Shown here piece after piece: positions 2,520 through 34,138 of a stretch of DNA of 43,973 nt (its first letter is position 1; each line of letters starts with the position of its first letter). Source of the stretch: a virus. The stretch covers positions 64,001 through 107,973 of the IMG/VR virus record IMGVR_UViG_3300044691_000477; one strand, written 5' to 3'. The notes under the pieces are model-generated. The model did not search any database. It was given only the letters and a program-made list of their open reading frames with translations, and had not been told where the DNA came from. The translations under genes were made by a program, and so were the position numbers.

Positions 2520-3074
2520 TTACAGGTGCAAAACAGCCTTGGCGGTCGTCCAGTTGGTCACCATCGCGGCCTGTCCTGTTGCCAGCGTGATCTTCCCTCT
2601 GCAGATCGCGTTGCGGACCTGCAGTTCCAGCGCGTCCTTGGGATTGTGGACGTAGGGCGAGGGTGCCTTGGCGTAGTTCGGTTCGACCCACAGGTTGCGA
2701 GGGTCAGCCGGCGAGCCACCCACCTCGAGCGGGATCAGGTGGTCGAGTTCGGTGCGAGCCGCATCCGAGGACGGCAGACCGTAGTCCTTCAGCGACTGCT
2801 GCTTGATCTTCGCCGTGACCGACTGGGGAGGCCGGATGGTCGCCGTCCAGCCCGCCTTGCAGATGGTCACGTTGATGTTGGCCTGGGTGACGTTGGGGTT
2901 GCGCAGACCTGGGTTGCAGGTCTTGTCAGGCAGCACCTGCAACGGGTCGGTGCCCTGTTGCCTGTAGGAGCACTTAGTGGTAGCCGCACGTCCGTTGTAG
3001 ACAGCCGTGTAGGTCTCAGTCCCTGCCGCAATCAGGAGAACGGCTGTGCCAACCACCAGAGATGTTCTGTGCAC
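2520..3074 (-). CDS. Predicted exported HNH/ββα-metal nuclease-like protein
   Basis: The 184-aa protein opens with a hydrophobic export segment (SLVVGTAVLLIAAG, residues 5-18). A Cys-bearing region follows: TCNPGLRNPNVTQANINVTIC, split here by its two cysteines. The nuclease-like core is ELDHLIPLEVGGSPADPRNLWVEP near residues 110-135, where DH and the later N are the metal/catalytic positions of HNH-type folds. The same layout is widespread in secreted actinobacterial proteins. GTG 3074 is one base from the endolysin stop. Export would place it in the envelope or medium; degradation of external or incoming DNA is a plausible but untested role. Confidence 0.72.
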   Translation of the reverse strand: MHRTSLVVGTAVLLIAAGTETYTAVYNGRAATTKCSYRQQGTDPLQVLPDKTCNPGLRNPNVTQANINVTICKAGWTATIRPPQSVTAKIKQQSLKDYGLPSSDAARTELDHLIPLEVGGSPADPRNLWVEPNYAKAPSPYVHNPKDALELQVRNAICRGKITLATGQAAMVTNWTTAKAVLHL

Positions 3075-3075
3075 C

Positions 3076-3831
3076 TCAGTGCCTGATGGTCTTGAGCACG
3101 GCTAGCGTCTTGGGACCAACAACACCGTCGGCGCCGCCACAGGCTGGGTGGTAGTGCTGGAACTGCTTGACGGCGGTCTGGGTCTGCTTCCCCCACACGC
3201 CGTCGACCGGGACGGCGATGGCCCACTGGACGAAGCGGACAGCGTTGCCCTTGGCACCAGCCGCGCAGGGTGTCGCGTACACCATGAAGGGGTTGGTCTT
3301 GCTCGCCGGTACGGGAGCAGGGGTGCCGCCGAACAGCAACTTGGAGAACTGCACCGCGCCCAACAGCGTCGCGCCGTGGTTGCGGTCGCGGTAGGTCGCC
3401 ATCCCGCCGTTCCACTGGCTGCCCTGGTCGGTCGGGCTGGTGTTCATCTCGAAGGTGCGGACCTTGCCGCCTCCCTCCTCCTTGATGAAGAAGCCGGTGT
3501 GGTCGGGGACGCCATCACCCTTCCAGTCGAAGATGATCGCGTCGCCGAACTGGTACCCCGAAGTGGTCCACAGTCCATGCTTCTTCGCCCAGATGTAAGC
3601 GTCGTTGCAGGAGATGTAGCCGTAGGGCCGATCGATGGCCGGGAGAGCCCCGCCAGCGTGCTTCACGACATAGCTCACACCGCCTGCGCACCACGAGGCG
3701 CCCTGCAGGGGTGGGTCGAGCTCGGCCCAGACCTTGGTGACGTTGCCGTCGGGGTGCTGCGCGTCGCGGGTCTCCCTGTAGCCGTTCATCGCATCGATGG
3801 ACGCCTGCAGGGACTGGCGAGTGATCGTCAT
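3076..3831 (-). CDS. Endolysin: CHAP-like amidase/peptidase plus peptidoglycan-binding domain
   Basis: The 251-aa protein starts at ATG 3831, with AGGAG 4 nt before it. A CHAP/NlpC-like catalytic module spans about residues 40-130: C48 in GASWCAGGVSYV, H111 in VPDHTGFFIKEEG, and an acidic/polar third residue in RTFEMN (about 127-130). The C-terminal ~60 residues form a PG_binding_1-type repeat (AVRFVQWAIAVPVDGVWGKQTQTAV.QFQ ... GVVGPKTLAVL). It has no signal peptide, as expected of a holin-dependent endolysin that cleaves host peptidoglycan at lysis. It heads a run of envelope-directed genes and lies about 32 kb from the holin candidates. Confidence 0.85.
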   Translation of the reverse strand: MTITRQSLQASIDAMNGYRETRDAQHPDGNVTKVWAELDPPLQGASWCAGGVSYVVKHAGGALPAIDRPYGYISCNDAYIWAKKHGLWTTSGYQFGDAIIFDWKGDGVPDHTGFFIKEEGGGKVRTFEMNTSPTDQGSQWNGGMATYRDRNHGATLLGAVQFSKLLFGGTPAPVPASKTNPFMVYATPCAAGAKGNAVRFVQWAIAVPVDGVWGKQTQTAVKQFQHYHPACGGADGVVGPKTLAVLKTIRH

Positions 3832-3862
3832 GCTGCTCCTTGTGGTGTACCGGATGCGCGCC

Positions 3863-4114
3863 TTACTGGAAGGTGATGCCGCCCGGCTGAAGCGGGTTGG
3901 TGAGGTAGTCCGGGGTGACGTGCACGCTTCCGTCGGGCAGATGCTTGACGCGTGCCTCGTGAATGCCGAAGTGCGCGTCAGACAGGTCGGCCTTCGCCTC
4001 CCAGGTCTCAGGCGAGATAGGACCCCCACGGTCGGTGGTGATCTTCTTGTAGGTGCCGTCGCTCATGCCCTCGGCGAGCTCGGCGTTCTGGCTGCGGCTG
4101 TTGTTGACCGTCAC
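3863..4114 (-). CDS. Hypothetical protein, 83 aa
   Basis: The product is hydrophilic with no recognised family. It reads MTVNNSRSQNAELAEGMSDG at the N-terminus, and a middle HFGIHEARVKHLPDGSVHVTPD looks like a short beta-rich segment. GTG 4114 follows the stop of the previous gene by 2 nt, so coupling is likely. There is no signal peptide or membrane segment. It sits just upstream of the endolysin in transcription order. Confidence 0.6.
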   Translation of the reverse strand: MTVNNSRSQNAELAEGMSDGTYKKITTDRGGPISPETWEAKADLSDAHFGIHEARVKHLPDGSVHVTPDYLTNPLQPGGITFQ

Positions 4115-4116
4115 TG

Positions 4117-4647
4117 CTACCTCCGTCGAACCTTCTGGGCGAAGGACGCGCCCATCTTGAGTTGCTGACCGACGAAGCTGCGGGTCCCCGCCATCGGGCG
4201 GCGGCTGACTGGCAGCACAGTCTGGGCGGGCTGGCCGCTTCGCATCATCGGGCTGCCAGGCAGAATCGTCTGGGAGCTGGGCATCGACCCGGCAGACCAG
4301 GCGTCTCGCCTCGAGGGAGCACCGACCCCACGCGGGTTCATCTGCCGCTGCTCACCAGGGCTGACGATGTTCGGGGTGAACGCGGTCGGCGATGAAGGTG
4401 CGGGCGGCACTCGAGGAGCGTTCATCTGCCCTGGCAGGACGTTGGGGGCCGGGTGCATGGGCCGGGTGGGCGTCAGTACGGCTGCGAGTCCCGCTCGAGC
4501 ATCAGCGTGTGCACTGGCCCATCCGTGCAGACCAGCAGCAGGGTCGTGGTCGGGCGCTGCGTTCATCCCGATGTCGTGAACGACGTTGCTGCGGCGGTCG
4601 GTGAAGAGGGCCATGCGTGCATCGTGCCCCACCGGGACGACGATCAC
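4117..4647 (-). CDS. Hypothetical Pro/Met/Gly-rich protein
   Basis: The open frame allows GTG 4647 (176 aa) or ATG 4614 (165 aa, beginning MALFTDRRSN); neither has a strong Shine-Dalgarno sequence. The sequence is rich in Pro, Met, Ser and Gln and low in predicted order, with a basic C-terminus (FAQKVRRR). It shares this composition with the other proteins of the 4849-8417 stretch, which suggests a common, perhaps virion-associated or scaffolding, context. No family recognised. Confidence 0.5.
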   Translation of the reverse strand: MIVVPVGHDARMALFTDRRSNVVHDIGMNAAPDHDPAAGLHGWASAHADARAGLAAVLTPTRPMHPAPNVLPGQMNAPRVPPAPSSPTAFTPNIVSPGEQRQMNPRGVGAPSRRDAWSAGSMPSSQTILPGSPMMRSGQPAQTVLPVSRRPMAGTRSFVGQQLKMGASFAQKVRRR

Positions 4648-11649: not shown

Positions 11650-11995
11650 CTTGTGCTGCCTCCAGGAGAGCGGTGTAGTCGTGCTCCTCCAGCACGACGT
11701 AGTGGCGTCCTCCGAGCTCAATGCCCATCAGATGCCTACGCCCTTCCAAGAGCGCCTCTCCCCTGATCTTCTCCAGCTCGCTGATCTTTAGGCTGAAGCT
11801 CCGACTGTCCGTGCGCTTGTACTCGATAAGTACCCCACATTCTTGCAGAGGGACACCAGGCGCGCGCGGGACTCTCACATCCCCCTTGGCGCTGGGCTTA
11901 CTGCCCGAACCGGGACGAACTGCGCCTCCCATGACACGAGCGCCGCGCTTCTCCTGGGCCTGACTTGCACGGATGCGCCGACGGATCTCGGTCAT
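11606..11995 (-). CDS. Putative PD-(D/E)XK-type nuclease/resolvase-like protein
   Basis: After the shared start MTEIRRRIR and a disordered basic region (to about residue 50), an ordered core reads [20 protein letters not shown] followed by [19 protein letters not shown] and [12 protein letters not shown]. An E-x-K followed by a helix and a strand is the usual end of a PD-(D/E)XK nuclease, and similar short phage proteins resemble Hjc-type resolvases. The proximal D of the motif is not obvious, so the assignment is tentative. ATG 11995 overlaps the HNH gene's stop as ATGA. Confidence 0.5.
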
Positions 11996-12522
11996 GCTGC
12001 CGCCTTCCTGGCTTGCTTCTGACGCCAGCGTTCACGATCACACGCCTTGCATCGACGTGTCACCGACCCATCCTTGCGGGTGTCGTAGGCGGTGTTCTCC
12101 TCGTCGTAGGCATGCCCATGGGCGCACTGCTGCTTCGAGGCCATCGGGTGCGTGCCATGCAAAAGCTGATCGCGGGAGTTCTCGGACGGAGTTCCCCACT
12201 TCAGGTTGACGAGACGGTTGTCGGTCGGGTTCCCGTTGAGATGTCGGGCTTGCCAGTTCTTCTCAGGGCGAGGACCGACGAACGCTTCCAGTACAGCGCG
12301 GTGCACGAACTTGACCTGCTGCTTCCCACCATTCGGTGTGACGTGGCAGAAGAGGTAGGGGTACTGCTTGGCACTGCAGAGCACCAGCACCTTGCCCTTC
12401 GTGCGTCTTGGTCGGGGAAGACTTCGGACACGACCGAGAGAGCTGACCTCGTAGGCTCCCTCGCACCCCACGACAGGACGCCACTGCTCTTGGTCCTTGA
12501 TACGCCGGCGGACGGTCGTCAC
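11992..12522 (-). CDS. Free-standing HNH homing-type endonuclease (NUMOD4 + HNH_3)
   Basis: The 176-aa protein begins with the shared MTTVRRR peptide. A NUMOD4-type segment follows ([21 protein letters not shown]), then the HNH core ([13 protein letters not shown] ... [20 protein letters not shown]), where H, N and the later N are the catalytic positions. A Cys/His C-terminus (CAHGHAY ... [13 protein letters not shown]) may bind zinc. Such genes are typically selfish, cutting phages that lack the insertion. It is inserted without disrupting the overlapping-stop organisation: GTGA at its start and ATGA at its end. Confidence 0.88.
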
Positions 12523-15403: not shown

Positions 15404-15431
15404 CGTGTCGTCTCCCGAGTGTCCATCTACT
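15400..15431 (-). repeat. Leader repeat B (start region of zinc-ribbon gene)
   Basis: Minus-strand blocks AGTAGATGGAC, ACTC and GGGAGACGACACGGTGA match repeat A at 8809-8847. The first block overlaps the polymerase stop TAG, so part of the repeat is coding-end sequence here and purely intergenic in repeat A. Confidence 0.7.
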
Positions 15432-18240
15432 TAGCGTCGCTCCAACGCTGCACAGTGTGCATGTCGATCTTCATCGGCACACTGAGCAGCTTCTGGATGC
15501 CGGGGCCAAGCATGGCCTCGTTGAGTACATCCTGCCCGTCTTCGATGCGGTCGTCAGGTACAACGAGCACGAGTTCGTCGTGCACGCTCAGACTCAGACG
15601 CAGTTCCTCATCACAGAGCCGATGTCCTCGCACCATGGCGAGCTTGATGATGTCGGCGGCGCTGCCCTGCACGACGGCGTTGACCGCCTGCCGCTCTGCC
15701 TCACTGCGGGGCCACCAGTCCTGCGCCATCAGAGCAGGCAGTCGACGCTTACGACCGAGCAGGGTGGTGACGTGCGGTGGACGTTGACGACGGGCATCAG
15801 CGACGGTGCGCTCGGTCCACTTGTAGAGCCGTGGCAGCAGCCTTCGGTGTGCCTTACGGAACGCAACAGCGTCGTCCAGAGAGATCTTCGACATGGACGC
15901 CACCTTGTCGTCACCGGCGCCGTAGGCCACTGCGAAGTTGGTGTTCTTCGCGGTGGTGCGCTGGGTCTTGGTGACATCCTCAGGGTCGATCCCGAAGACC
16001 ATCCCGGCGACGAGCTTGTGCAGGTCGACACCTTCATCGAACGCCTTTACCAGCACTGGGTCCCGACTGAAGTGCGCCATGACGATGTACTCGATCTGGC
16101 CGTAGTCGGCGACCACGAGACTGTGACCTGGTGGAGCAATGAACAGACCGCGCACCTTGGTACCGAGGTTGTCGACGTCATCTTTCTCGCCAGGTCGTGG
16201 GATGTTCTGCAGGTTTGGCTCGCTGCAGTTGTGGTTGTAGAACCCCTGCGTCAAGTAAGAGTGGTCTCCTGCGACTTCAACGTCCCAGACACCCATTGTG
16301 CCCAGAGAGGCGATCTCGCGAATGCTGACCGTCTGCCGTGCAGGTGCCGGTGGCCGACCTTCGTCACAACCGCGAGGTTGTCCCAATCGTTGTTCGTCTT
16401 GTCCTCGTCTATGTGGTGCACCTCCACCCAGTCGGGCAGTTTCTTCAGCCCGAGCGCCTCGGCCATCACCAACCGATGTACGTACTCGTACTTCCTGCCG
16501 ATCTTCCGCTGCAGGTAGCCATGGCCGTCGAAGATGTCCCCCTTGTGGCCGTGGTGCTGAGAGCCACTCTTTCCGCTCATCGGGTTCTCGTGCATCTTCG
16601 ATCTGGAGTAGCGGAGCGCCTGCTCGGCCTTGAGTTGCTCCCTCGGCAGACCGTGGTTCACGATGTGCTGCACGTTGTGGAACGTCGTCCCCAGCCGCAG
16701 AGCGAGCTGCTGCAGAGTCGGCTTGTCTGGTGCGAGGTACATCTCCAGCACTTGGTCGCCATTGGCTTGCACGAACGCCTTCGACACCGACATACCCAAG
16801 CACCTCATCGCCTTGCGTCATGTCCCCGACAGAGCGCCACCCGGTCGGGGTGAGCAGCCTGTGCTCACGGGTACATTCAAGCACCGAACCGTTCGACAAA
16901 CATACCCGCAGCATCTCGTCGGTGCCCTTGTAGATCTTCCGCAGCACGGGCTTCAGCGCGCCCGTATGTGTGCGCACGAGGTCGCCCTCCTCGGGCAGGT
17001 ACGAGTCGAAACGGAAATCACCCCGGCTGGTGGGCAGGATCGTCGCCCCCGACACACAGGAGAACCGGCCCGTCACTGTCCCATGCTGTTTGAAGTTGGC
17101 GTGCAACTTGCCCTTGTAAAGGATCGAGGGCTTGATCTCTATGCGCTTCTTGCCGCCGCTCTCCTTGACCACCTCGCCGCCCAAGTAGGCCGTCAGGTAG
17201 GTGCTGTGAATCTTGTCGACGTCCTCGTGCTCGAGGTAGGTGTCGATGAACGGGTGGTCGAGTTTCTCGAGGGTCTCCCGTGCCGTCGACGGAGCACCAC
17301 CCTTCGTCCTGCCTTTGACCTTCAGCCCGAAGCCGCCTTCCTTCTTCGGGCCATAGAACAGGGCTTGCTTCTGGGGGCTGCTGTTGAGGTTCACTTCGCG
17401 GCCAGCGATGCGGTAGAGCTCCCCCTTGAGCTGAGCCAACTTGCGCCCGAGTTCTCCCTTGAGTTTCTCGGCTGCCTTGACGTCGAGGAGCGCACCTTGC
17501 TGTTCCATGTAGAGCAGCACCTCGAGCACGTCCATCTCCAGGCGCCACAACCCGTCGAGACCCTGCTCCTCGATCTGTGGTTCGTAAAGCTCCTTGAGCA
17601 GCCAGGTGGACTTCGCGTCGTAATGGTTGTACCTGGCTGCTGCGCGGAACCCGTAACGCTCGGGGGCCTCCCCCATCTTCTTGTCGTAGACGAATCCGAG
17701 CTCTCGCTTGTTGAGTGTGCCGAGGCGGTAGTCGCGGTAGTTCTCGTTGAGCATGTGGGCGGCGATCTGAACGTCGAAGAACGGGCCTGGCATGACTTCA
17801 TCGTCGTAGTACTTCAAGATGGTCTCGAGGTCGAACTTGATGTTGCAGCCGATCTTGAGCACGTCTTCGTCGTAGAACAACGGCTCGAGGATCCCGAAGA
17901 CCTCTCCACGCGGGAGTTGTCGTGGGGCAGGGGTCCAGAGCGGCACCTTGTAGTTGCGAGTCTTACCGTCGTTGCCGACACGTGGCTCGGTGGTGGTGCC
18001 GTTCTGCTCACCGTGCGGATGCCCACTGGGTACAACGAAGGACAACCCCTGCGTGGCGATCCCGGTCCAGATGACTTCATTGCGTCGTGGGTCGAGCCGG
18101 AACTGATCGAAGGTCTCGCCGGCGCCGGGGACGGTCTCAACGTCGAAGGCGAACTCGCCCTTGTCCAGTACGCGATCCACCAATTCTTCGAGCTCGCGGT
18201 CGTCGGTGACGATGCGTGTAGTGGTGAGCAGCCTGGTCAC
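15427..18240 (-). CDS. polA: Family A DNA polymerase (Pol I/T7-like) interrupted by an intein
   Basis: The 937-aa precursor would splice to about 660 aa. The 3'-5' exonuclease shows FAFDVETVPG (DxE), IGCNIKFDLE and YNHYDAKSTWLL. The polymerase shows motif A VADYGQIEYIVMAHFSRDP, motif B RTTAKNTNFAVAYG and motif C SVHDELVLV. The intein occupies residues 395-671, immediately before SEPNLQNIPRPG, a highly conserved primer-template contact. The +1 extein residue is Cys. GTG 18240 overlaps the 48-aa gene's stop as GTGA. This is the replicative polymerase; DnaB-like helicase, primase and SSB-like genes are encoded upstream in the same direction. Confidence 0.93.
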   Translation of the reverse strand: MTRLLTTTRIVTDDRELEELVDRVLDKGEFAFDVETVPGAGETFDQFRLDPRRNEVIWTGIATQGLSFVVPSGHPHGEQNGTTTEPRVGNDGKTRNYKVPLWTPAPRQLPRGEVFGILEPLFYDEDVLKIGCNIKFDLETILKYYDDEVMPGPFFDVQIAAHMLNENYRDYRLGTLNKRELGFVYDKKMGEAPERYGFRAAARYNHYDAKSTWLLKELYEPQIEEQGLDGLWRLEMDVLEVLLYMEQQGALLDVKAAEKLKGELGRKLAQLKGELYRIAGREVNLNSSPQKQALFYGPKKEGGFGLKVKGRTKGGAPSTARETLEKLDHPFIDTYLEHEDVDKIHSTYLTAYLGGEVVKESGGKKRIEIKPSILYKGKLHANFKQHGTVTGRFSCVSGATILPTSRGDFRFDSYLPEEGDLVRTHTGALKPVLRKIYKGTDEMLRVCLSNGSVLECTREHRLLTPTGWRSVGDMTQGDEVLGYVGVEGVRASQWRPSAGDVPRTRQADSAAARSAAGDDVPQRAAHREPRSAEGATQGRAGAPLLQIEDAREPDERKEWLSAPRPQGGHLRRPWLPAAEDRQEVRVRTSVGDGRGARAEETARLGGGAPHRRGQDEQRLGQPRGCDEGRPPAPARQTVSIREIASLGTMGVWDVEVAGDHSYLTQGFYNHNCSEPNLQNIPRPGEKDDVDNLGTKVRGLFIAPPGHSLVVADYGQIEYIVMAHFSRDPVLVKAFDEGVDLHKLVAGMVFGIDPEDVTKTQRTTAKNTNFAVAYGAGDDKVASMSKISLDDAVAFRKAHRRLLPRLYKWTERTVADARRQRPPHVTTLLGRKRRLPALMAQDWWPRSEAERQAVNAVVQGSAADIIKLAMVRGHRLCDEELRLSLSVHDELVLVVPDDRIEDGQDVLNEAMLGPGIQKLLSVPMKIDMHTVQRWSDAK
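16228..17058 (-). other. Intein in DNA polymerase (277 aa)
   Basis: Block A begins CVSGATILPTS directly after extein GRFS; C1 is encoded at 17058-17056. Block B is SNGSVLECTREHRLLTPTGW with the TxxH pair. Block F/G is MGVWDVEVAGDHSYLTQGFYNHN, ending in His-Asn at 16230-16228, followed by extein Cys (16227-16225). These are the residues needed for class 1 splicing. The central ~150 residues (after DEVLGYVG, up to RQTVSIREI) are Arg/Ala/Gly/Glu-rich with no domain in this frame. The same DNA encodes an HNH endonuclease in the +1 frame. Confidence 0.88.
16251..16793 (-). CDS. HNH endonuclease nested out of frame inside the intein
   Basis: This 180-aa ORF lies wholly within the intein, in the +1 frame relative to polymerase. 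ATG 16793 (MSVSKAFVQANGD) has GAGG 8 nt upstream; a TGA in this frame lies just above, so it is not a continuation of an upstream ORF. Residues ~10-60 look like a helix-turn-helix (TLQQLALRLGTTFHNVQHI). The HNH_3 core is HRLVMAEALGLKKLPDWVEV-HHIDEDKTNNDWDNLAVVT with catalytic HH...N...N. The 3' end overlaps codons for the intein's C-terminal splicing block. It probably mediates intein homing, translated separately from the polymerase. Confidence 0.85.
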   Translation of the reverse strand: MSVSKAFVQANGDQVLEMYLAPDKPTLQQLALRLGTTFHNVQHIVNHGLPREQLKAEQALRYSRSKMHENPMSGKSGSQHHGHKGDIFDGHGYLQRKIGRKYEYVHRLVMAEALGLKKLPDWVEVHHIDEDKTNNDWDNLAVVTKVGHRHLHGRRSAFARSPLWAQWVSGTLKSQETTLT

Positions 18241-24410: not shown

Positions 24411-26315
24411 TCAGGCCACGTCATCCTCGGCAGCACCCGGATCGTGCTCGCGCAAGAACTCCGCAAGGCTGGCGGCGGTGATCTTCACCTTCTCCATCGC
24501 CTGACCAGTTCGGACAGCCTGCACCACGGCCTCTTTCGTCTGGGTGATGTTGGCGTAGTAGACCTCGAGGGTGTTCCAGATCAGGTAGTCACGGACGTTG
24601 ACAGCAGTGTGGAAGTCGAGGTTGGCGCGACGGACACGGGCATTGCGCTGCGTGACACGACCAGCAGTGAAGGGCTTGTCGTAGTTGAACAGATGGTTGC
24701 CCTGTGGCAGATCGACGCCGTACCCGCCGGCGTCGGACGTCAAGAACAGCCTGGTCTCAGGCTCTCGCTGGAAGCGCTGCTTGGACAGATTGCGAGCCTT
24801 CAACGGCATATCCCCGTCGTACCGGGTGGAGAGCTTCTCGCCGTAGCGCTCCTCGAGCACCCGGAGCGCCATCTTGTGGTAGCTGAACACGACGATCTTG
24901 TTGAGTGCCCGGCGCTCGGATGGAGTGCGGTCGGCACATGCTGGGCACTCGCAGGTGCCGTCGAGAACCTTGTCGATGTCGAGACACAACTCGTCCATCT
25001 TCGGGGTCTCGATCAGGTCATCAAGCTCCCCTTCATCGAGCAACTTGGCGGCGTAGGCCGAGCCACTGTGCCCCTTGGGGACAAGAACGATGGCGTCCCC
25101 GCGCTTCCGCTTCACCTTCGGCCAGCCGGTGGGGTGGTAGGGCTTGGGGCACTTGTGGCTCTTCGCCGTCGAGCACTTGTGGTCTGGAATCGGTGACGGG
25201 CAGTCCTCTTCGTCGTGCTCGCCATAGGTGGCGATGTGGTGGTCTCGAGCGGCATCCATGTCGGCGTGCAGTCGGAGTTGGGCGAAGTACTCCTCGCCGG
25301 AGTTGATGAGCTGGTCAGGGTGCGCACAGAGCATTCGCATGCACGAGATCTTGCTCATGATCTTGCCTTGGGTCTCGGCGTCGGAGGTCTCGCCGGCATA
25401 GTGGGCATAGATGTCGAAGCCCCCGCGGGCTCGCTTGGCTGCGTCGGTGAGTTCCTGCTGCAGATCCTTGCTCATGAGCTGGTAGACCCGTGCTGTCTCG
25501 GGGTCGAAATCGATGAGGATGCGCTTCGGCTTGCGCATCGTCGGCATGTAGTCGCGGACACCTGGGTCGTCGGCGTCGATACTGGCCGAGCAGTCCTGCA
25601 TCATCTCGTGGAACAACGACAGGTTCATGTACTTGCGTACCGTGCCCCACTTGTTTCGCTCCACGAAAGTGCTGTCGAAGATGTCGGGGCGACCTAGCAC
25701 TGAGTCATCGATGAAGGACATGATCTGGAACAGCTCTTCGGGCTTGCCGTTCTCCATCGGTGTGCCTGTCAGGCCGAAGCGGAAGGGCGCATCACCGAGG
25801 GTGCTTCGGCATGCCTGCGTGACCAGGGCGTTGGGGTTCTTGATAGTCGTGATCTCGTCCACCACGACGAACATCATCGGGAGCCCCGCAACCTTGTTGT
25901 TGTCATCGATCACCTGGTCATAGCCGACGATGACGTACATCGGCTGAGTGCGCTCAGCCTGTTCGTAGAGATCCCATCGCTTGTCGGGTGACCCGTCGAT
26001 AACGAGCACGTCGCTGGCCCCTACGTGGACGTGTGTGCTGTCGTGGTCGGGGTGGGTCGGGTCAGTGATGTCCTTGCCGCAGCACTCCTCGCAGGTGAAG
26101 GCGAGAATCTGGTCGCGCCACTGGTCCTTCAGCCCACCAGAGCAGACAACGAGACCGCAGAAGTCCGGGAACTCGTCAGCGAGCTCCTCGAGAGCGGCCA
26201 CGGTCATCGGGGTCTTGCCGGTTCCCACGCCGGCTGTCAGGAGGAACAGCCCGCGGTCGACCATTCGCTCGACTGGATCGACCTGATACGGCCTGAGTTT
26301 TCCGGTGAAAGCCAT
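24411..26315 (-). CDS. SNF2-family DNA-dependent ATPase/helicase
   Basis: ATG 26315 has AGGAG 7 nt upstream. The 634-aa protein holds superfamily 2 motifs: LRPYQVDPVERM (Q-like), Walker A TAGVGTGKTPM, DEIT for the DExx box (VVVDEITTIKN), LTGTPMEN (III), a C-lobe with GYGVDLPQGNH, and QRNARVRR (VI). Two Cys/His-rich inserts, CEECCGKD...H..H and CPSPIPDHKCSTAKSHKCP, plus CECPACADR, may bind zinc and are unusual in this family. Likely roles are remodelling of stalled replication forks or displacement of DNA-bound proteins. It follows the primase, whose 3' end overlaps it. Confidence 0.87.
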   Translation of the reverse strand: MAFTGKLRPYQVDPVERMVDRGLFLLTAGVGTGKTPMTVAALEELADEFPDFCGLVVCSGGLKDQWRDQILAFTCEECCGKDITDPTHPDHDSTHVHVGASDVLVIDGSPDKRWDLYEQAERTQPMYVIVGYDQVIDDNNKVAGLPMMFVVVDEITTIKNPNALVTQACRSTLGDAPFRFGLTGTPMENGKPEELFQIMSFIDDSVLGRPDIFDSTFVERNKWGTVRKYMNLSLFHEMMQDCSASIDADDPGVRDYMPTMRKPKRILIDFDPETARVYQLMSKDLQQELTDAAKRARGGFDIYAHYAGETSDAETQGKIMSKISCMRMLCAHPDQLINSGEEYFAQLRLHADMDAARDHHIATYGEHDEEDCPSPIPDHKCSTAKSHKCPKPYHPTGWPKVKRKRGDAIVLVPKGHSGSAYAAKLLDEGELDDLIETPKMDELCLDIDKVLDGTCECPACADRTPSERRALNKIVVFSYHKMALRVLEERYGEKLSTRYDGDMPLKARNLSKQRFQREPETRLFLTSDAGGYGVDLPQGNHLFNYDKPFTAGRVTQRNARVRRANLDFHTAVNVRDYLIWNTLEVYYANITQTKEAVVQAVRTGQAMEKVKITAASLAEFLREHDPGAAEDDVA

Positions 26316-27309
26316 GCTGCTTCTCCTGCTCCGAACGTACGCCGGCTGCGATGTAGTGCTGGGCTTCGTACAGCCCATACGTCACCAGCGCGGCGTCCAT
26401 GGTCCCGATGTCCTTCTCGTCGCTGCGACCGTAGTTGAAGTGCCTGACATGAAGGAGCTTGCGGACCGTTGGGTCAACCAACTCGGCGGCTGCCTGCCGA
26501 CCTGCCTTGTCGTTGTCGAGAGCCTCGACCAACTCCTCGGTGCACTCGATCAACAGCCGTTTCTGCGCCTGGCTGACCGAGCTTCCCATCGTGGCCAACC
26601 CGCCTTCGTAGCCGATGGTGAAGAGCCGCAACACATCGAGCGGTGACTCGAGCACGACCGCTGGCTCCCCGATGGGGAACTCGCAGTATCCGAAAAGGGT
26701 GAGGCTCTTCACCATCTCCTTCGGGGTGTTGATGAAGCGACGCTTCTTCTCCCACTTCTCCTGCCAACCCATCAGATCCCCGTTGGGCGCGCGGACAGGG
26801 ATGATCCAACTCTCCCGCTTGGTGCTCCAGCGAACGCCGTAGTGATCGACGGATTCACGGTCGAGGTGTCGCGCCTCAAGCGCCCAGTCTGGCGCTTCGT
26901 CGTACATCGCGAGCTTGGTCTCCGGGACCATCTCCAACCTGGCGATCTCAGCGTCGAGATCTTCACGCTCCCGGCTGGCGAAATTGCCGAGCTCGCTGGC
27001 CCTTGCGAGGTTGGTGCCGAACTGCCGCAGCCACCGTGCCGCCCGGAACACGTCGTTGGGGAACTGTAGGTACATCACGAGTTCGAGAAAGGTCCCCTGG
27101 AAGCCGCACGAGTAACAGTTGTGCAGACCACTCTCCCGGTTGACCGACCACGACGGGTGCCGCTCTTCGCGGCCAAGGCGTTCCATATGACCTGGGCAGT
27201 AGCCCGTGATCTCGTCGTCATTGGTCTTCCAGATGCGCACCTGCAGGGCGTCCAGGGCTTCCTCAATGTCCTTGGGCGCCCGGTGGTGAGTGCGACGTAG
27301 CTCAGCCAC
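26176..27309 (-). CDS. DNA primase (CHC2 zinc finger + Toprim)
   Basis: The N-terminal zinc-binding module reads TGYCPGHMER ... LHNCYSCGFQGTF (C, H, C, C) around residues 35-70. A bridging domain (VDHYGVRWSTKRESWIIPVR) and the Toprim core follow: AVVLESPLDVLRL with the catalytic Glu, then ALDNDKAGRQAA with the D-x-D. It makes RNA primers for the DnaB-like helicase encoded just upstream. GTG 27309 overlaps that gene's stop by 8 nt. The last ~46 codons overlap the SNF2 gene for 140 nt and read as Arg-rich overprint. Confidence 0.88.
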   Translation of the reverse strand: MAELRRTHHRAPKDIEEALDALQVRIWKTNDDEITGYCPGHMERLGREERHPSWSVNRESGLHNCYSCGFQGTFLELVMYLQFPNDVFRAARWLRQFGTNLARASELGNFASREREDLDAEIARLEMVPETKLAMYDEAPDWALEARHLDRESVDHYGVRWSTKRESWIIPVRAPNGDLMGWQEKWEKKRRFINTPKEMVKSLTLFGYCEFPIGEPAVVLESPLDVLRLFTIGYEGGLATMGSSVSQAQKRLLIECTEELVEALDNDKAGRQAAAELVDPTVRKLLHVRHFNYGRSDEKDIGTMDAALVTYGLYEAQHYIAAGVRSEQEKQHGFHRKTQAVSGRSSRANGRPRAVPPDSRRGNRQDPDDRGRSRGAR

Positions 27310-31074: not shown

Positions 31075-32274
31075 CTAGCTTGCGCGGCGCCGTCGAGGAG
31101 TTGCCTTCTTCGGCTCATCATCGGTGTCACGTGCCTGCGCTTCGCTGCCGTCCTTGCGCGGTCGACCAGCGCTCTTGGGCTTGCGAACCTCAGTGATGAT
31201 GTGCTCGGCGAAGAGCATCATGCTCACCGCAAGGGCAGCAGAGGCGCGCTCGAGAACCTGATCTTGGTCACCCTCCTCGGCGATGGCCTTGAGACTGACC
31301 ACCAGGTTCTGGCTGATCTGCTCAGCGGCCTCCCTGCTGCTGCGCAAACGGGCGAACACAGCCTCCTTGGGGTCCTCAGCGTCCTCGTCCTCCACCGGCT
31401 CGTCACCGGGCTCTGCAGCCTTCGCTGCGCGGCCACGACGAGTTGGTGCAGCCGGCTGCTGCGCCTCGTCACCGTCGCCGTCGAGTGGGAGTTGGTCCTC
31501 CTTGGCCGCGCGCTCGGCGAGGATGATGGCGTCGGCAACGAACTCCTTGTCGGTGCCCTTCAGGGAGTCGGTGGTCACCGACTTGTCGACGTCCTTGAGC
31601 TTCCTCTTCAACTCGGTCAGCCCGAGCTTCAGCAGGTTGGTGTGACGTCGCTTCTCGACCGCGGTGTAGTCGCCCTTCTCCTCCTGGGGCTCCGCAGCCG
31701 CTGCTGCGCGTCCCCTACCACGACGTGTCGGCTCCTCTGCGGGCTCCGTGGGCTCCTCGGGTTGGCCGTCCTCCTCGAAGGAGACCAGAGACAGCCCCTC
31801 CACGATGTTGTAGCAGGCCACGTCCGCTTCGTCAGCCGCCTCGGCGATGGCGACGTCATCCTCGCTGTCGGCGTCGAGGAACAGGATCAGCCGACCGTCG
31901 GCCACCTCCTGGTCATCGCTCGAGGTGAGGAAGTCCAGCATCGCCTCGTGCATGGACGGGTACTCGTCGGCGTCGTAGTCGTTGCCCTCACCGGCGAGCG
32001 CGATGACCTTCTTCAGCGAACGGTCCTTGTTGGCGTCCGCGTCCGAGAGCGTCGAGAACGGGATCTCATACTCCGTGCACCAGGCCACCACGGCGGCGAT
32101 GCCGTCGGTGTAGGTGTCCTTGGTGACCGGCACGACGAGCAGGTCGACCTCGGTGTCCTCAGTGATGAGGTCATCGAGTTGTGCGGCAACCGCCTTGGGG
32201 TCGAGCTCGGCGGAACCGAGGAACCCGAGCGTCAGCGGCTTCTTGGGCGTGCTACGCCCCCTGCGTGATGGCAT
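31075..32274 (-). CDS. Two-part protein: alpha/beta domain plus AT-hook-like basic motifs, 399 aa
   Basis: Residues ~12-170 form an alternating alpha/beta domain (LTLGFLGSAELDPKAVAAQL, VDLLVVPVTKDTYTDGIAAV, EVADGRLILFLDAD) that looks Rossmann-like (SLOG/TIR type possible). The rest is disordered, with basic RG motifs (RRGRGRAAAA about 184, RRGRAAKAAE about 277) and AGRPRKDG near 369, which matches the AT-hook GRP core, ending RRRRAS. A helical segment (EQISQNLVVSLKAIAEEGDQ) lies between. It could be a nucleoid-like DNA binder or silencing antagonist. Its ATG lies inside the methyltransferase's 3' end (23-nt overlap). Two terminators follow. Confidence 0.6.
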   Translation of the reverse strand: MPSRRGRSTPKKPLTLGFLGSAELDPKAVAAQLDDLITEDTEVDLLVVPVTKDTYTDGIAAVVAWCTEYEIPFSTLSDADANKDRSLKKVIALAGEGNDYDADEYPSMHEAMLDFLTSSDDQEVADGRLILFLDADSEDDVAIAEAADEADVACYNIVEGLSLVSFEEDGQPEEPTEPAEEPTRRGRGRAAAAAEPQEEKGDYTAVEKRRHTNLLKLGLTELKRKLKDVDKSVTTDSLKGTDKEFVADAIILAERAAKEDQLPLDGDGDEAQQPAAPTRRGRAAKAAEPGDEPVEDEDAEDPKEAVFARLRSSREAAEQISQNLVVSLKAIAEEGDQDQVLERASAALAVSMMLFAEHIITEVRKPKSAGRPRKDGSEAQARDTDDEPKKATPRRRRAS

Positions 32275-34138
32275 TTTTCATCCTCTCTGCCCACTCGATT
32301 CCTCGAGTGGGACGCGCCGCCTCGATAGCGACGTGGCTTGCAAGCAGCACAGGCACGGCGTTTCCGACCTGTTCGAACTGCTTGGTTCTTGATCCCTGCC
32401 ACGGATAATTGGGCAAGAAAGACTGCAGCACACCAGCCTCAGCGACTGACACCCGCAGCCCGTCGTTACGGCTCTTGGTCTTGCCGTTGAAGCGGTTGGC
32501 GTTGGCGCCGGGGTGCTGCACCAGGTCGCGAGTGGCCAGCACGGTCGCTGGGCGCTTCGATGGCCAGTCGTGGTCCCAGTCGGTCCCTGTCTGATCGTTA
32601 ACGCGCTCGTAGCCATCAGGTGTCTTGTCGATCCACTGCCACTGACTGGCATCGTGGCCGAGCGCCACTGTCGGGGCGGGCTTGTCGATGGTGCGCGGGA
32701 CACTGCGGTCGTTAGCGCGGACGTGCGCCCCTGTCCCGAGCACCCACACGGCACTGCCTTGCCCGGTTATCGTGGCGGCAGGCGCCCTAGATGGATGACG
32801 GGTCCGCTGCCTCGAGGTAGCCCCGTATCCGGCAGTGCGCATACCGACCTTCTCCACCAACTCGAGCATCCCGGTGGTCAGACCGATCATGATCTCGAGG
32901 GCTACCTCGAGAGGTAACTTCTCCTCTTCGAGAAGCCAGTGCATGGAGTTGAGTCGCGCACCGAAATACATCGTCGGTGCTGGACGGTCGATGTCACGAA
33001 CTGCCGCCTTCTTGCTGGTGTTGTTACGCAGCGCGGTGATCCGAAGCGCACGTTGCACGGTCGGGTCAGGGTCTGCGTCGTCGTAGATGTCGAGCCACTG
33101 CGGAGGTTTTCCGGTCAGTGTGAGGCTCGGTTCGTCCACCAGCCGCACACCGCGACCTCGTTCCTGCGCCTTCGATCCGTGGGCGCCGTGGCTGTAGTTG
33201 CTGCGTTGGACACGGAGCGGGTGGTCCTCAGGCTGCTCGATCCATGCACCGCTGTCGTGCGCGTCGTTGACGACCTTGCGGGCGCCGCTACCGCCAGCCA
33301 TCAGACTGTCGGCTCCACCTGCTGCTGTTCCGGCTGCGATGGTGATGTAGGGCCGCTTCGGCATCCCCCATCCGAGTGCGTCAGCCATGCTGACCCACTT
33401 GCGCACGCCACTGTCCAACTTGTCGGGGGTCCTGGCGTAGTAGCGGCTGTGCGTCGGTGCCGGCTTGCTGACATCACCGACACGCGACGCGATGAGGATG
33501 GCACGCTCACGGGTCTGCGGAACGCCGTACTGCTCGGCGTAGAGCTTGCCCGTCCAGACACTGAACCCTCGAGCCTCGAGCACGGCCTTGCAGGCATCCC
33601 AGATGATCTGCACGAACGGGACCTGTTCCCAGACCATCCACTCTGGGTTCATCAGGAACGCCCAGCGCAGCGGCTCGAGTACTAGTCGCGAGCGCGGGTC
33701 CTCCCAGCCCTCGGACTCCTCAAACTCGACCCAGGCGTTGTCTTGCAAGCACATCCCGATATGCGCCAGGATGCGGGCCGCGTCGCCGAGACCTTTCTGC
33801 AGACCGGCCTTGCTGAATCCCTGACACGGTGGTGATGCCCAGAAGCCAGGGATGCCGCGATAGAACGTGGGATCCAGGATCGACACGTCGGCCTGCAGTG
33901 TCGCCAGTCCTGCCGCGATGCGTGTCTTGCAGGCCGCATCGTCCTTCTCGATGCCGAGGCCCTTCAGGCCGATGTTGTGCAGCCCCATGCTGGCGCCGCC
34001 CGGCCCGGCGAAGATCTCCACCACGTCGTACTTGACCTCGGGCGCTGACGGCTGGTCGTAGAGCTCCTGCAGGAGCTTGACCTCATTCGCGGTCAGCCGG
34101 GGGTCAGCCAGCTTCGGGCGGCGCTTCAGCAGCGTCAC
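32252..34138 (-). CDS. C5 cytosine DNA methyltransferase with repeat-rich target region
   Basis: The 628-aa protein begins with the shared MTLLKRR peptide. Motif I is VVEIFAGPGGASMG, IV is ASPPCQGFSKAG (catalytic Cys in PCQ), VI is WEQVPF (usual ENV), VIII is QTRERAILIA, X is EQVGNAVP. Between VIII and X lies a long region with at least five variants of a P-A-P-T-(h)-x-x-G unit: DEPSLTLTG, DRPAPTMYFG, RAPAATITG, DKPAPTVALG, KRPATVLAT. It transfers a methyl group from SAM to cytosine C5, likely protecting phage DNA from host restriction. GTG 34138 lies below an inverted-repeat operator. Confidence 0.9.
   Translation of the reverse strand: MTLLKRRPKLADPRLTANEVKLLQELYDQPSAPEVKYDVVEIFAGPGGASMGLHNIGLKGLGIEKDDAACKTRIAAGLATLQADVSILDPTFYRGIPGFWASPPCQGFSKAGLQKGLGDAARILAHIGMCLQDNAWVEFEESEGWEDPRSRLVLEPLRWAFLMNPEWMVWEQVPFVQIIWDACKAVLEARGFSVWTGKLYAEQYGVPQTRERAILIASRVGDVSKPAPTHSRYYARTPDKLDSGVRKWVSMADALGWGMPKRPYITIAAGTAAGGADSLMAGGSGARKVVNDAHDSGAWIEQPEDHPLRVQRSNYSHGAHGSKAQERGRGVRLVDEPSLTLTGKPPQWLDIYDDADPDPTVQRALRITALRNNTSKKAAVRDIDRPAPTMYFGARLNSMHWLLEEEKLPLEVALEIMIGLTTGMLELVEKVGMRTAGYGATSRQRTRHPSRAPAATITGQGSAVWVLGTGAHVRANDRSVPRTIDKPAPTVALGHDASQWQWIDKTPDGYERVNDQTGTDWDHDWPSKRPATVLATRDLVQHPGANANRFNGKTKSRNDGLRVSVAEAGVLQSFLPNYPWQGSRTKQFEQVGNAVPVLLASHVAIEAARPTRGIEWAERMKNAITQGA

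Follow-up and report, generated by a model that had tools for sequence, protein, structure and literature searches.

An HNH endonuclease gene nested out of frame in a viral DNA polymerase intein, and a family of inteins of the same design

Inteins normally carry their nuclease in frame, an arrangement that ties nuclease production to protein splicing. In the window analysed here (the whole stretch of 43,973 nucleotides, positions 64,001 to 107,973 of the viral record IMGVR_UViG_3300044691_000477), the segment 16228-17058 of the minus strand raises the question of whether an intein can instead hold its nuclease as a complete gene in another reading frame and, if so, how such a nuclease would be made and how old the design is. 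We find that this segment is a class 1-type intein containing a complete out-of-frame HNH gene, as the original prediction had proposed.

The host gene is a family A DNA polymerase whose reading frame (15427-18240, minus strand, as are all polymerase, intein and HNH features of the window given below; 937 aa) is free of stops over its full length and matches Pfam DNA_pol_A at E 2e-87. The intein contributes 277 aa to this precursor (residues 395-671) and is flanked by VTGRFS on its N side and CSEPNLQN on its C side. The N-extein (17059-18240; Pfam DNA_pol_A_exo1 and DNA_pol_A) comprises the exonuclease and the start of the polymerase domain and ends in TGRFS, and the C-extein (15427-16227) starts at CSEPNLQN and is identified by the DNA_pol_A match. 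In the nearest relatives (L008, L009, L010 and L012) the site is empty and reads TGRFS followed directly by C[RK].PNLQN, and the element is thus delimited by its alignment gap as a precise in-frame insertion at a conserved site, which is what is expected of an intein. The splicing blocks originally predicted for the polymerase frame are indeed there, in an open frame: Cys1, a block B reading CTREH (TxxH) and a C-terminal YNHN before the Cys of the C-extein. Contig L005 (Phage DP SC_2_H4_2017) carries a conventional in-frame HNH intein at 3022-4011, at least one codon upstream of the same polymerase motif. An imprecise loss or an assembly gap at ~4990 in L044 leaves the polymerase without about 19 codons, TGRFS among them, at the position of the intein. 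Alignment gaps in the window methyltransferase (32252-34138) and helicase (24411-26378), checked for hidden elements, look ordinary.

Structure prediction agrees with the splicing residues. An AlphaFold model built from the intein alignment gives residues 1-91 and 237-277 a Hint fold with pLDDT 90-97, and residues 92-236, with pLDDT below 50, are predicted to be disordered. The predicted fold matches solved inteins in Foldseek (TM-score by target length ~0.8) and an eight-member profile finds solved inteins at E 1e-15, the Mtu RecA intein among them; the window sequence alone matches Pfam Intein_splicing only weakly (E 4e-5, below the curated cut-off). On the DNA, the N-terminal splicing half with Cys1 and CTREH occupies 16786-17058, the stop-free linker 16351-16785, and the C-terminal half, a conserved block in the alignment with pLDDT >90, 16228-16350, the last of these also encoding the C-terminus of the HNH protein down to 16251. 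The class 1 residues (position 1, block B TxxH, His-Asn, and Cys, Ser or Thr at +1) are present in the window and conserved in the family. What departs from an ordinary intein is the nuclease, which lies in the +1 frame throughout rather than in frame with the splicing domain; because mini-inteins lack a nuclease, this does not exclude intein status but marks the variant.

The HNH gene itself (16251-16793, 180 aa) runs in the +1 frame of the polymerase from an ATG at 16793 to a TGA stop, and its identity as a complete gene is borne out by matches to Pfam HNH_3 (E 2e-11) and phrog_7545 (E 4e-18) and by a family alignment. AlphaFold predicts four N-terminal helices and an HNH core, that is, a helix-turn-helix plus HNH, with a mean pLDDT of 75.6. 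The model's best PDB structure match is I-HmuI (probability 0.99, E 0.035), a nuclease from a group I intron of the polymerase gene of SPO1; the HNH profile gave no match against PDB sequences. Residues 1-65 (16599-16793; helices over 5-65, pLDDT mostly 86-94) form a helical, helix-turn-helix-like and putatively DNA-binding part, and residues 86-153 (16335-16538; VHHIDED..NN..DNLAVVT..GHRHLH) form the predicted catalytic core, delimited by residues invariant in eight members, by the model and by the I-HmuI match. With an HNH motif and a fold that includes a DNA-binding part, the product has the features of an HNH homing endonuclease and we regard it as a putative nuclease. Its tail (residues 156-180), which overlaps the Hint C block, is predicted at low confidence and varies in length across the family, and a function for it is doubtful. 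The low-complexity Arg/Ala/Gly centre of the polymerase frame is simply what GC-rich HNH-coding DNA gives when translated in that frame, and in AT-richer family members the composition of the linker centre differs from that of the window. A second HNH gene in the window (11992-12522; NUMOD4 and HNH_3) is apparently free-standing and falls outside the nested family.

The window is not alone in this arrangement. A scan with its HNH gave no matches; a C-extein scan returned the empty-site relatives and L062, which carries the same element with an HNH 57% identical to that of the window, and scans with two- and eight-member alignments were needed for the remaining members. With the duplicates L160 and L185 left out, 32 further distinct IMG/VR contigs have the nested arrangement (33 including the window), and all family members are metagenome contigs. 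In every one of them the HNH occupies the polymerase's +1 frame, and in the 29 that are sufficiently complete its stop codon is 8-98 nt short of the intein end. Cys1, the block B His and a terminal HN followed by C or S are kept over the family. Every host gene scanned matches DNA_pol_A (32/32, window included) and 30 of the 32 match Intein_splicing, with the insertion nearly always at one polymerase motif, TGR[LFM][SA] followed by C or S. The nested design is a conserved kind of mobile element, neither a sequencing error nor a recent accident. Among the inspected matches of protein searches with four nested HNHs there was no cultured phage with a nested intein, the matches being group I intron versions only, and a nucleotide search of phage isolates gave only short polymerase matches.

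Several contigs show variations on this theme. The intein lies one codon earlier than in other members, between TGRF and S, in L090 (4736-5578) and L093 (4657-5514), and L187 and L188 (97-98% mutual identity) have a nested HNH in an intein at another polymerase site, with a C-extein starting CPSKTVLFEK. L168 (3800-4550), possibly a decaying intein, retains an intact nested HNH but is missing about 33 residues after Cys1 in its N-terminal Hint half. Nine of 32 host polymerase ORFs also have a uracil-DNA glycosylase superfamily domain, and one host ORF also matches LAGLIDADG families, which suggests a second element. In L181, L193 and L236 both other frames are closed and the HNH is not nested in an intein. 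The last of these, an Erythrobacter litoralis contig, has, in the region 3340-4510, an intein-clade HNH directly following a polymerase N-half whose frame ends at the same motif (TFRTNRL and then a stop); the C-half was not found nearby and there was no Rfam group I match, so that a remnant or an undetected intron may be present.

The length of an open frame says little in DNA of this kind: in this GC-rich genome other genes, examined as a control, also have alternative-frame open runs of 160-220 codons, and ORF length alone was accordingly rejected as evidence for a nested gene. We regard the gene as beyond chance because there is homology in both frames, because 32 contigs share the architecture, and because of a synonymous codon shuffle. 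In that shuffle, which ignores shared ancestry, 221 polymerase-frame stops were expected over the HNH region of the 33 members and none was seen, so that no intein carrier has a polymerase frame closed across the HNH, an outcome that would have counted against the original prediction; the third frame in the same shuffle had 427 stops vs 369 expected. For the window alone, the polymerase frame has 0 stops where the shuffle predicts 4.1 (P=0.005). Of the 15 substitutions between L187 and L188, 10 are synonymous for the HNH and 2 for the polymerase frame, which suggests purifying selection in the HNH frame. Polymerase-frame identity is 0.227 across the centre, as compared to the 0.202 imposed by HNH codons alone, and 0.315 in the C-terminal overlap, as compared to a null of 0.170, and in the HNH frame the Hint C block shows an identity of 0.265 vs a null of 0.166; since all of these nulls ignore shared ancestry, it is safer to rely on how the centre differs from the overlap. 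On this comparison the polymerase frame seems to be kept open across the centre and little else. The HNH shares about 33 codons with the Hint C block, not the 35 or so first estimated, and of HNH residues 156-180 only about the first ten codons firmly bear out the accompanying claim that ~100 bases encode two constrained proteins.

How, then, would the nuclease be expressed? A GAGG (16803-16806), resembling a Shine-Dalgarno site, precedes the HNH ATG by 9 nt (the motif had been predicted correctly, at a spacing of 8) and is placed inside the Hint codons for GDEV. The predicted TGA in the HNH frame is found at 16818-16820, 24 nt upstream of the start, and a second in-frame ATG at 16808 lies between the two. 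Across the family the HNH starts align at an MSVSK-like motif just past the N-terminal Hint half, and a four-base Shine-Dalgarno core stands at a suitable distance from 20 of 29 starts, about eight of which were chosen by that motif, as compared to 13% of other start-like codons in the same frame and genes (p 7e-11 by duplex energy); the other nine starts are without such a core. In several members the site falls in the codons for the Hint GDxV motif, and in L091 and L095 stop codons lie directly 5' of the start. Together the conserved start, the enrichment and these stops make internal initiation the likely route, in line with the original prediction, and we infer that the HNH is made in this way.

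Two other routes to the same protein were weighed. The HNH might be translated from a transcript of its own, from an internal promoter, which would alter expression and leave the architecture the same; phage intron-borne nuclease genes are often expressed separately, and we consider this route unlikely though worth keeping in mind. Programmed ribosomal frameshifting, yielding a fusion to the N-terminal Hint half, strikes us as distinctly less probable again. Frameshifting is common in phages and the HNH frame of several members opens shortly upstream of the start, but in L091 and L095 the stop abuts the ATG, and therefore any shift would have to fall within the HNH gene; the conserved MSVSK-like start with its Shine-Dalgarno enrichment also argues against a shift, as does the fact that the fusion product would terminate within the C-terminal Hint block.

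Taking these observations together, it is very probable that the element is a mobile intein with a self-contained homing endonuclease gene nested out of frame. In the mechanism we propose, a ribosome would read the polymerase frame through the whole element to give the 937-aa precursor, and the two Hint halves would fold around the disordered linker of ~145 residues and splice, leaving a 660-aa polymerase. The same mRNA would yield an HNH protein of ~20 kDa by internal initiation at the Shine-Dalgarno site embedded in the Hint codons. This protein would nick or cut intein-free polA alleles near TGRFSCxEPNLQN, and repair of the cut allele would copy the whole element. Selection would presumably act on the HNH protein in one frame and, in the other, on the Hint blocks and little more than openness across the centre. 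Protein splicing, nuclease activity and homing are here deduced from sequence comparison and structure prediction.

There is a very slight chance that the insert is not spliced and that the polymerase tolerates it as an additional domain, the interpretation put forward for the ShiLan insertion. Out-of-frame HNH insertions of that type, which have no splicing domain, are on record (PMC11855218), and L168 lacks part of its N-terminal Hint half; against this, the residues for splicing (Cys1, block B His, terminal HN before C or S) are retained, the Hint fold is confidently predicted, and an insert of 277 aa within the conserved TGRFS..PNLQN would probably be damaging. A group I intron with an HNH gene, removed from RNA, is more improbable still: the closest HNHs of cultured phages do sit in polA group I introns, detected by Rfam in five cases, but no Rfam match was found in E-value mode in window 16000-17300 or in L062, L091, L095 and L096, the polymerase frame has no stops in the 33 members, and the Hint halves have both their splicing residues and a confidently predicted fold. 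That the HNH is truly in frame and displaced by sequencing or assembly error, for which the ordinary in-frame HNH inteins of phage polymerases such as that of L005 offer a precedent, has a negligible chance, since two compensating indels cannot explain the same offset in 33 contigs, and the HNH has its start and stop with no in-frame continuation.

The comparisons also bear on the age of the nested intein. HNH and Hint distances are correlated (r=0.67; partial 0.63 given the C-extein) more closely than either is with C-extein distances (0.38 for HNH, 0.30 for Hint), and mean identity across members is 44% for the HNH and 41% for the Hint domain as compared to 27% for the C-extein. This co-divergence, with conservation better than that of the C-extein, suggests that HNH and Hint move together and across polymerase lineages, and the element is, as judged from these distances, an old, mobile, dual-frame one that appears to spread as a unit. 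The proposal of a young invasion of a mini-intein by a free-standing HNH gene is not sustained, the arrangement being common to contigs with C-exteins only ~27% identical and with co-diverged HNH and Hint. As regards expression, the further suggestion that nesting uncouples homing from splicing is a reasonable one; the HNH and Hint nevertheless still travel together.

The nearest HNHs in cultured phages are found in group I introns of polA (Pf-WMP3, PhAPEC7, phiL7 and Acinetobacter phages). Rfam detects an intron in five of those polA loci when used in E-value mode (E 2e-6 to 5e-3), established group I introns being lost at its gathering thresholds, and in an unrooted tree the five intron HNHs cluster together (99/92), separately from those nested in inteins. 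The Pf-WMP3 intron junction, between SSSKP and NIQQ, lies 12 nt further downstream than the intein site; the nick made by I-PfoP3I is 4 nt upstream of the Pf-WMP3 intron site (PMC3428280), and the SPO1 intron lies between N675 and L676 in E. coli numbering (PMC2814812). Two splicing vehicles thus hold related nucleases at nearly coinciding sites in polA. This leads us to lean, if only slightly, towards the view that one HNH lineage targeting polA at TGRLS..PNLQN has used two unrelated vehicles, group I introns and Hint inteins, and that in the intein form it stayed an independent gene by dual-frame coding, a stable, widespread and horizontally moving solution missed by gene callers.

Among known systems, hidden out-of-frame HNHs have been described in phage methylases, namely the ShiLan domain or Pacc40 gp60 insertion (PMC11855218) and, in phage Applejack, another methylase HNH (PMC12613952); the former paper, where it cites Gosselin et al. 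2025 and Gorbalenya 1998, states that overlapping frames are found in actinobacteriophages. Like ShiLan, the nested intein has a complete out-of-frame HNH in an insert that is open in the host frame, and the two share a disjunct distribution that suggests homing. Unlike ShiLan, which has no detectable intein or intron splicing domain, it has both Hint halves, and its host gene is a polymerase rather than a methylase; for ShiLan, moreover, no Shine-Dalgarno site is reported. The polA intron HNHs of the I-PfoP3I type (PMC3428280) are the nearest by sequence and share the host gene and the habit of a separate ORF in a splicing element, but they are carried by a ribozyme that is removed from RNA, and stops interrupt the polymerase frame there. 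With ordinary inteins, such as those of the CL131 dCTP deaminase with HNH_3 (PMC6293099) and L005, the nested intein shares a Hint domain, a conserved site and a nuclease between the halves. In those, however, the nuclease shares the reading frame of the splicing domain and is excised as part of the intein, whereas here it is out of frame. Dassa et al. 2009 reportedly described fractured genes in which split inteins are accompanied by a separate gene for a homing nuclease; these likewise have the nuclease as its own gene between intein halves, but host gene and intein are split into two genes, whereas in the window they form a single continuous ORF. No account of an out-of-frame nuclease in an intein came up in our literature search, and Gosselin et al. 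2025 or Gorbalenya 1998 may already describe such an intein: the former, a preprint, is said to concern actinobacteriophage inteins with a 'non-canonical architecture', and the latter reportedly deals with 'Non-canonical inteins'.

Throughout the family one stretch of DNA holds two complete coding layers, one for a splicing protein and one for a separate nuclease, where standard annotation shows just a low-complexity linker, and the family offers a natural example of overlapping genes with one layer reduced to staying open. Homing could in such elements be regulated separately from splicing. With related nucleases in RNA- and protein-splicing elements near the same spot in polA, how homing nucleases change vehicles becomes directly testable.
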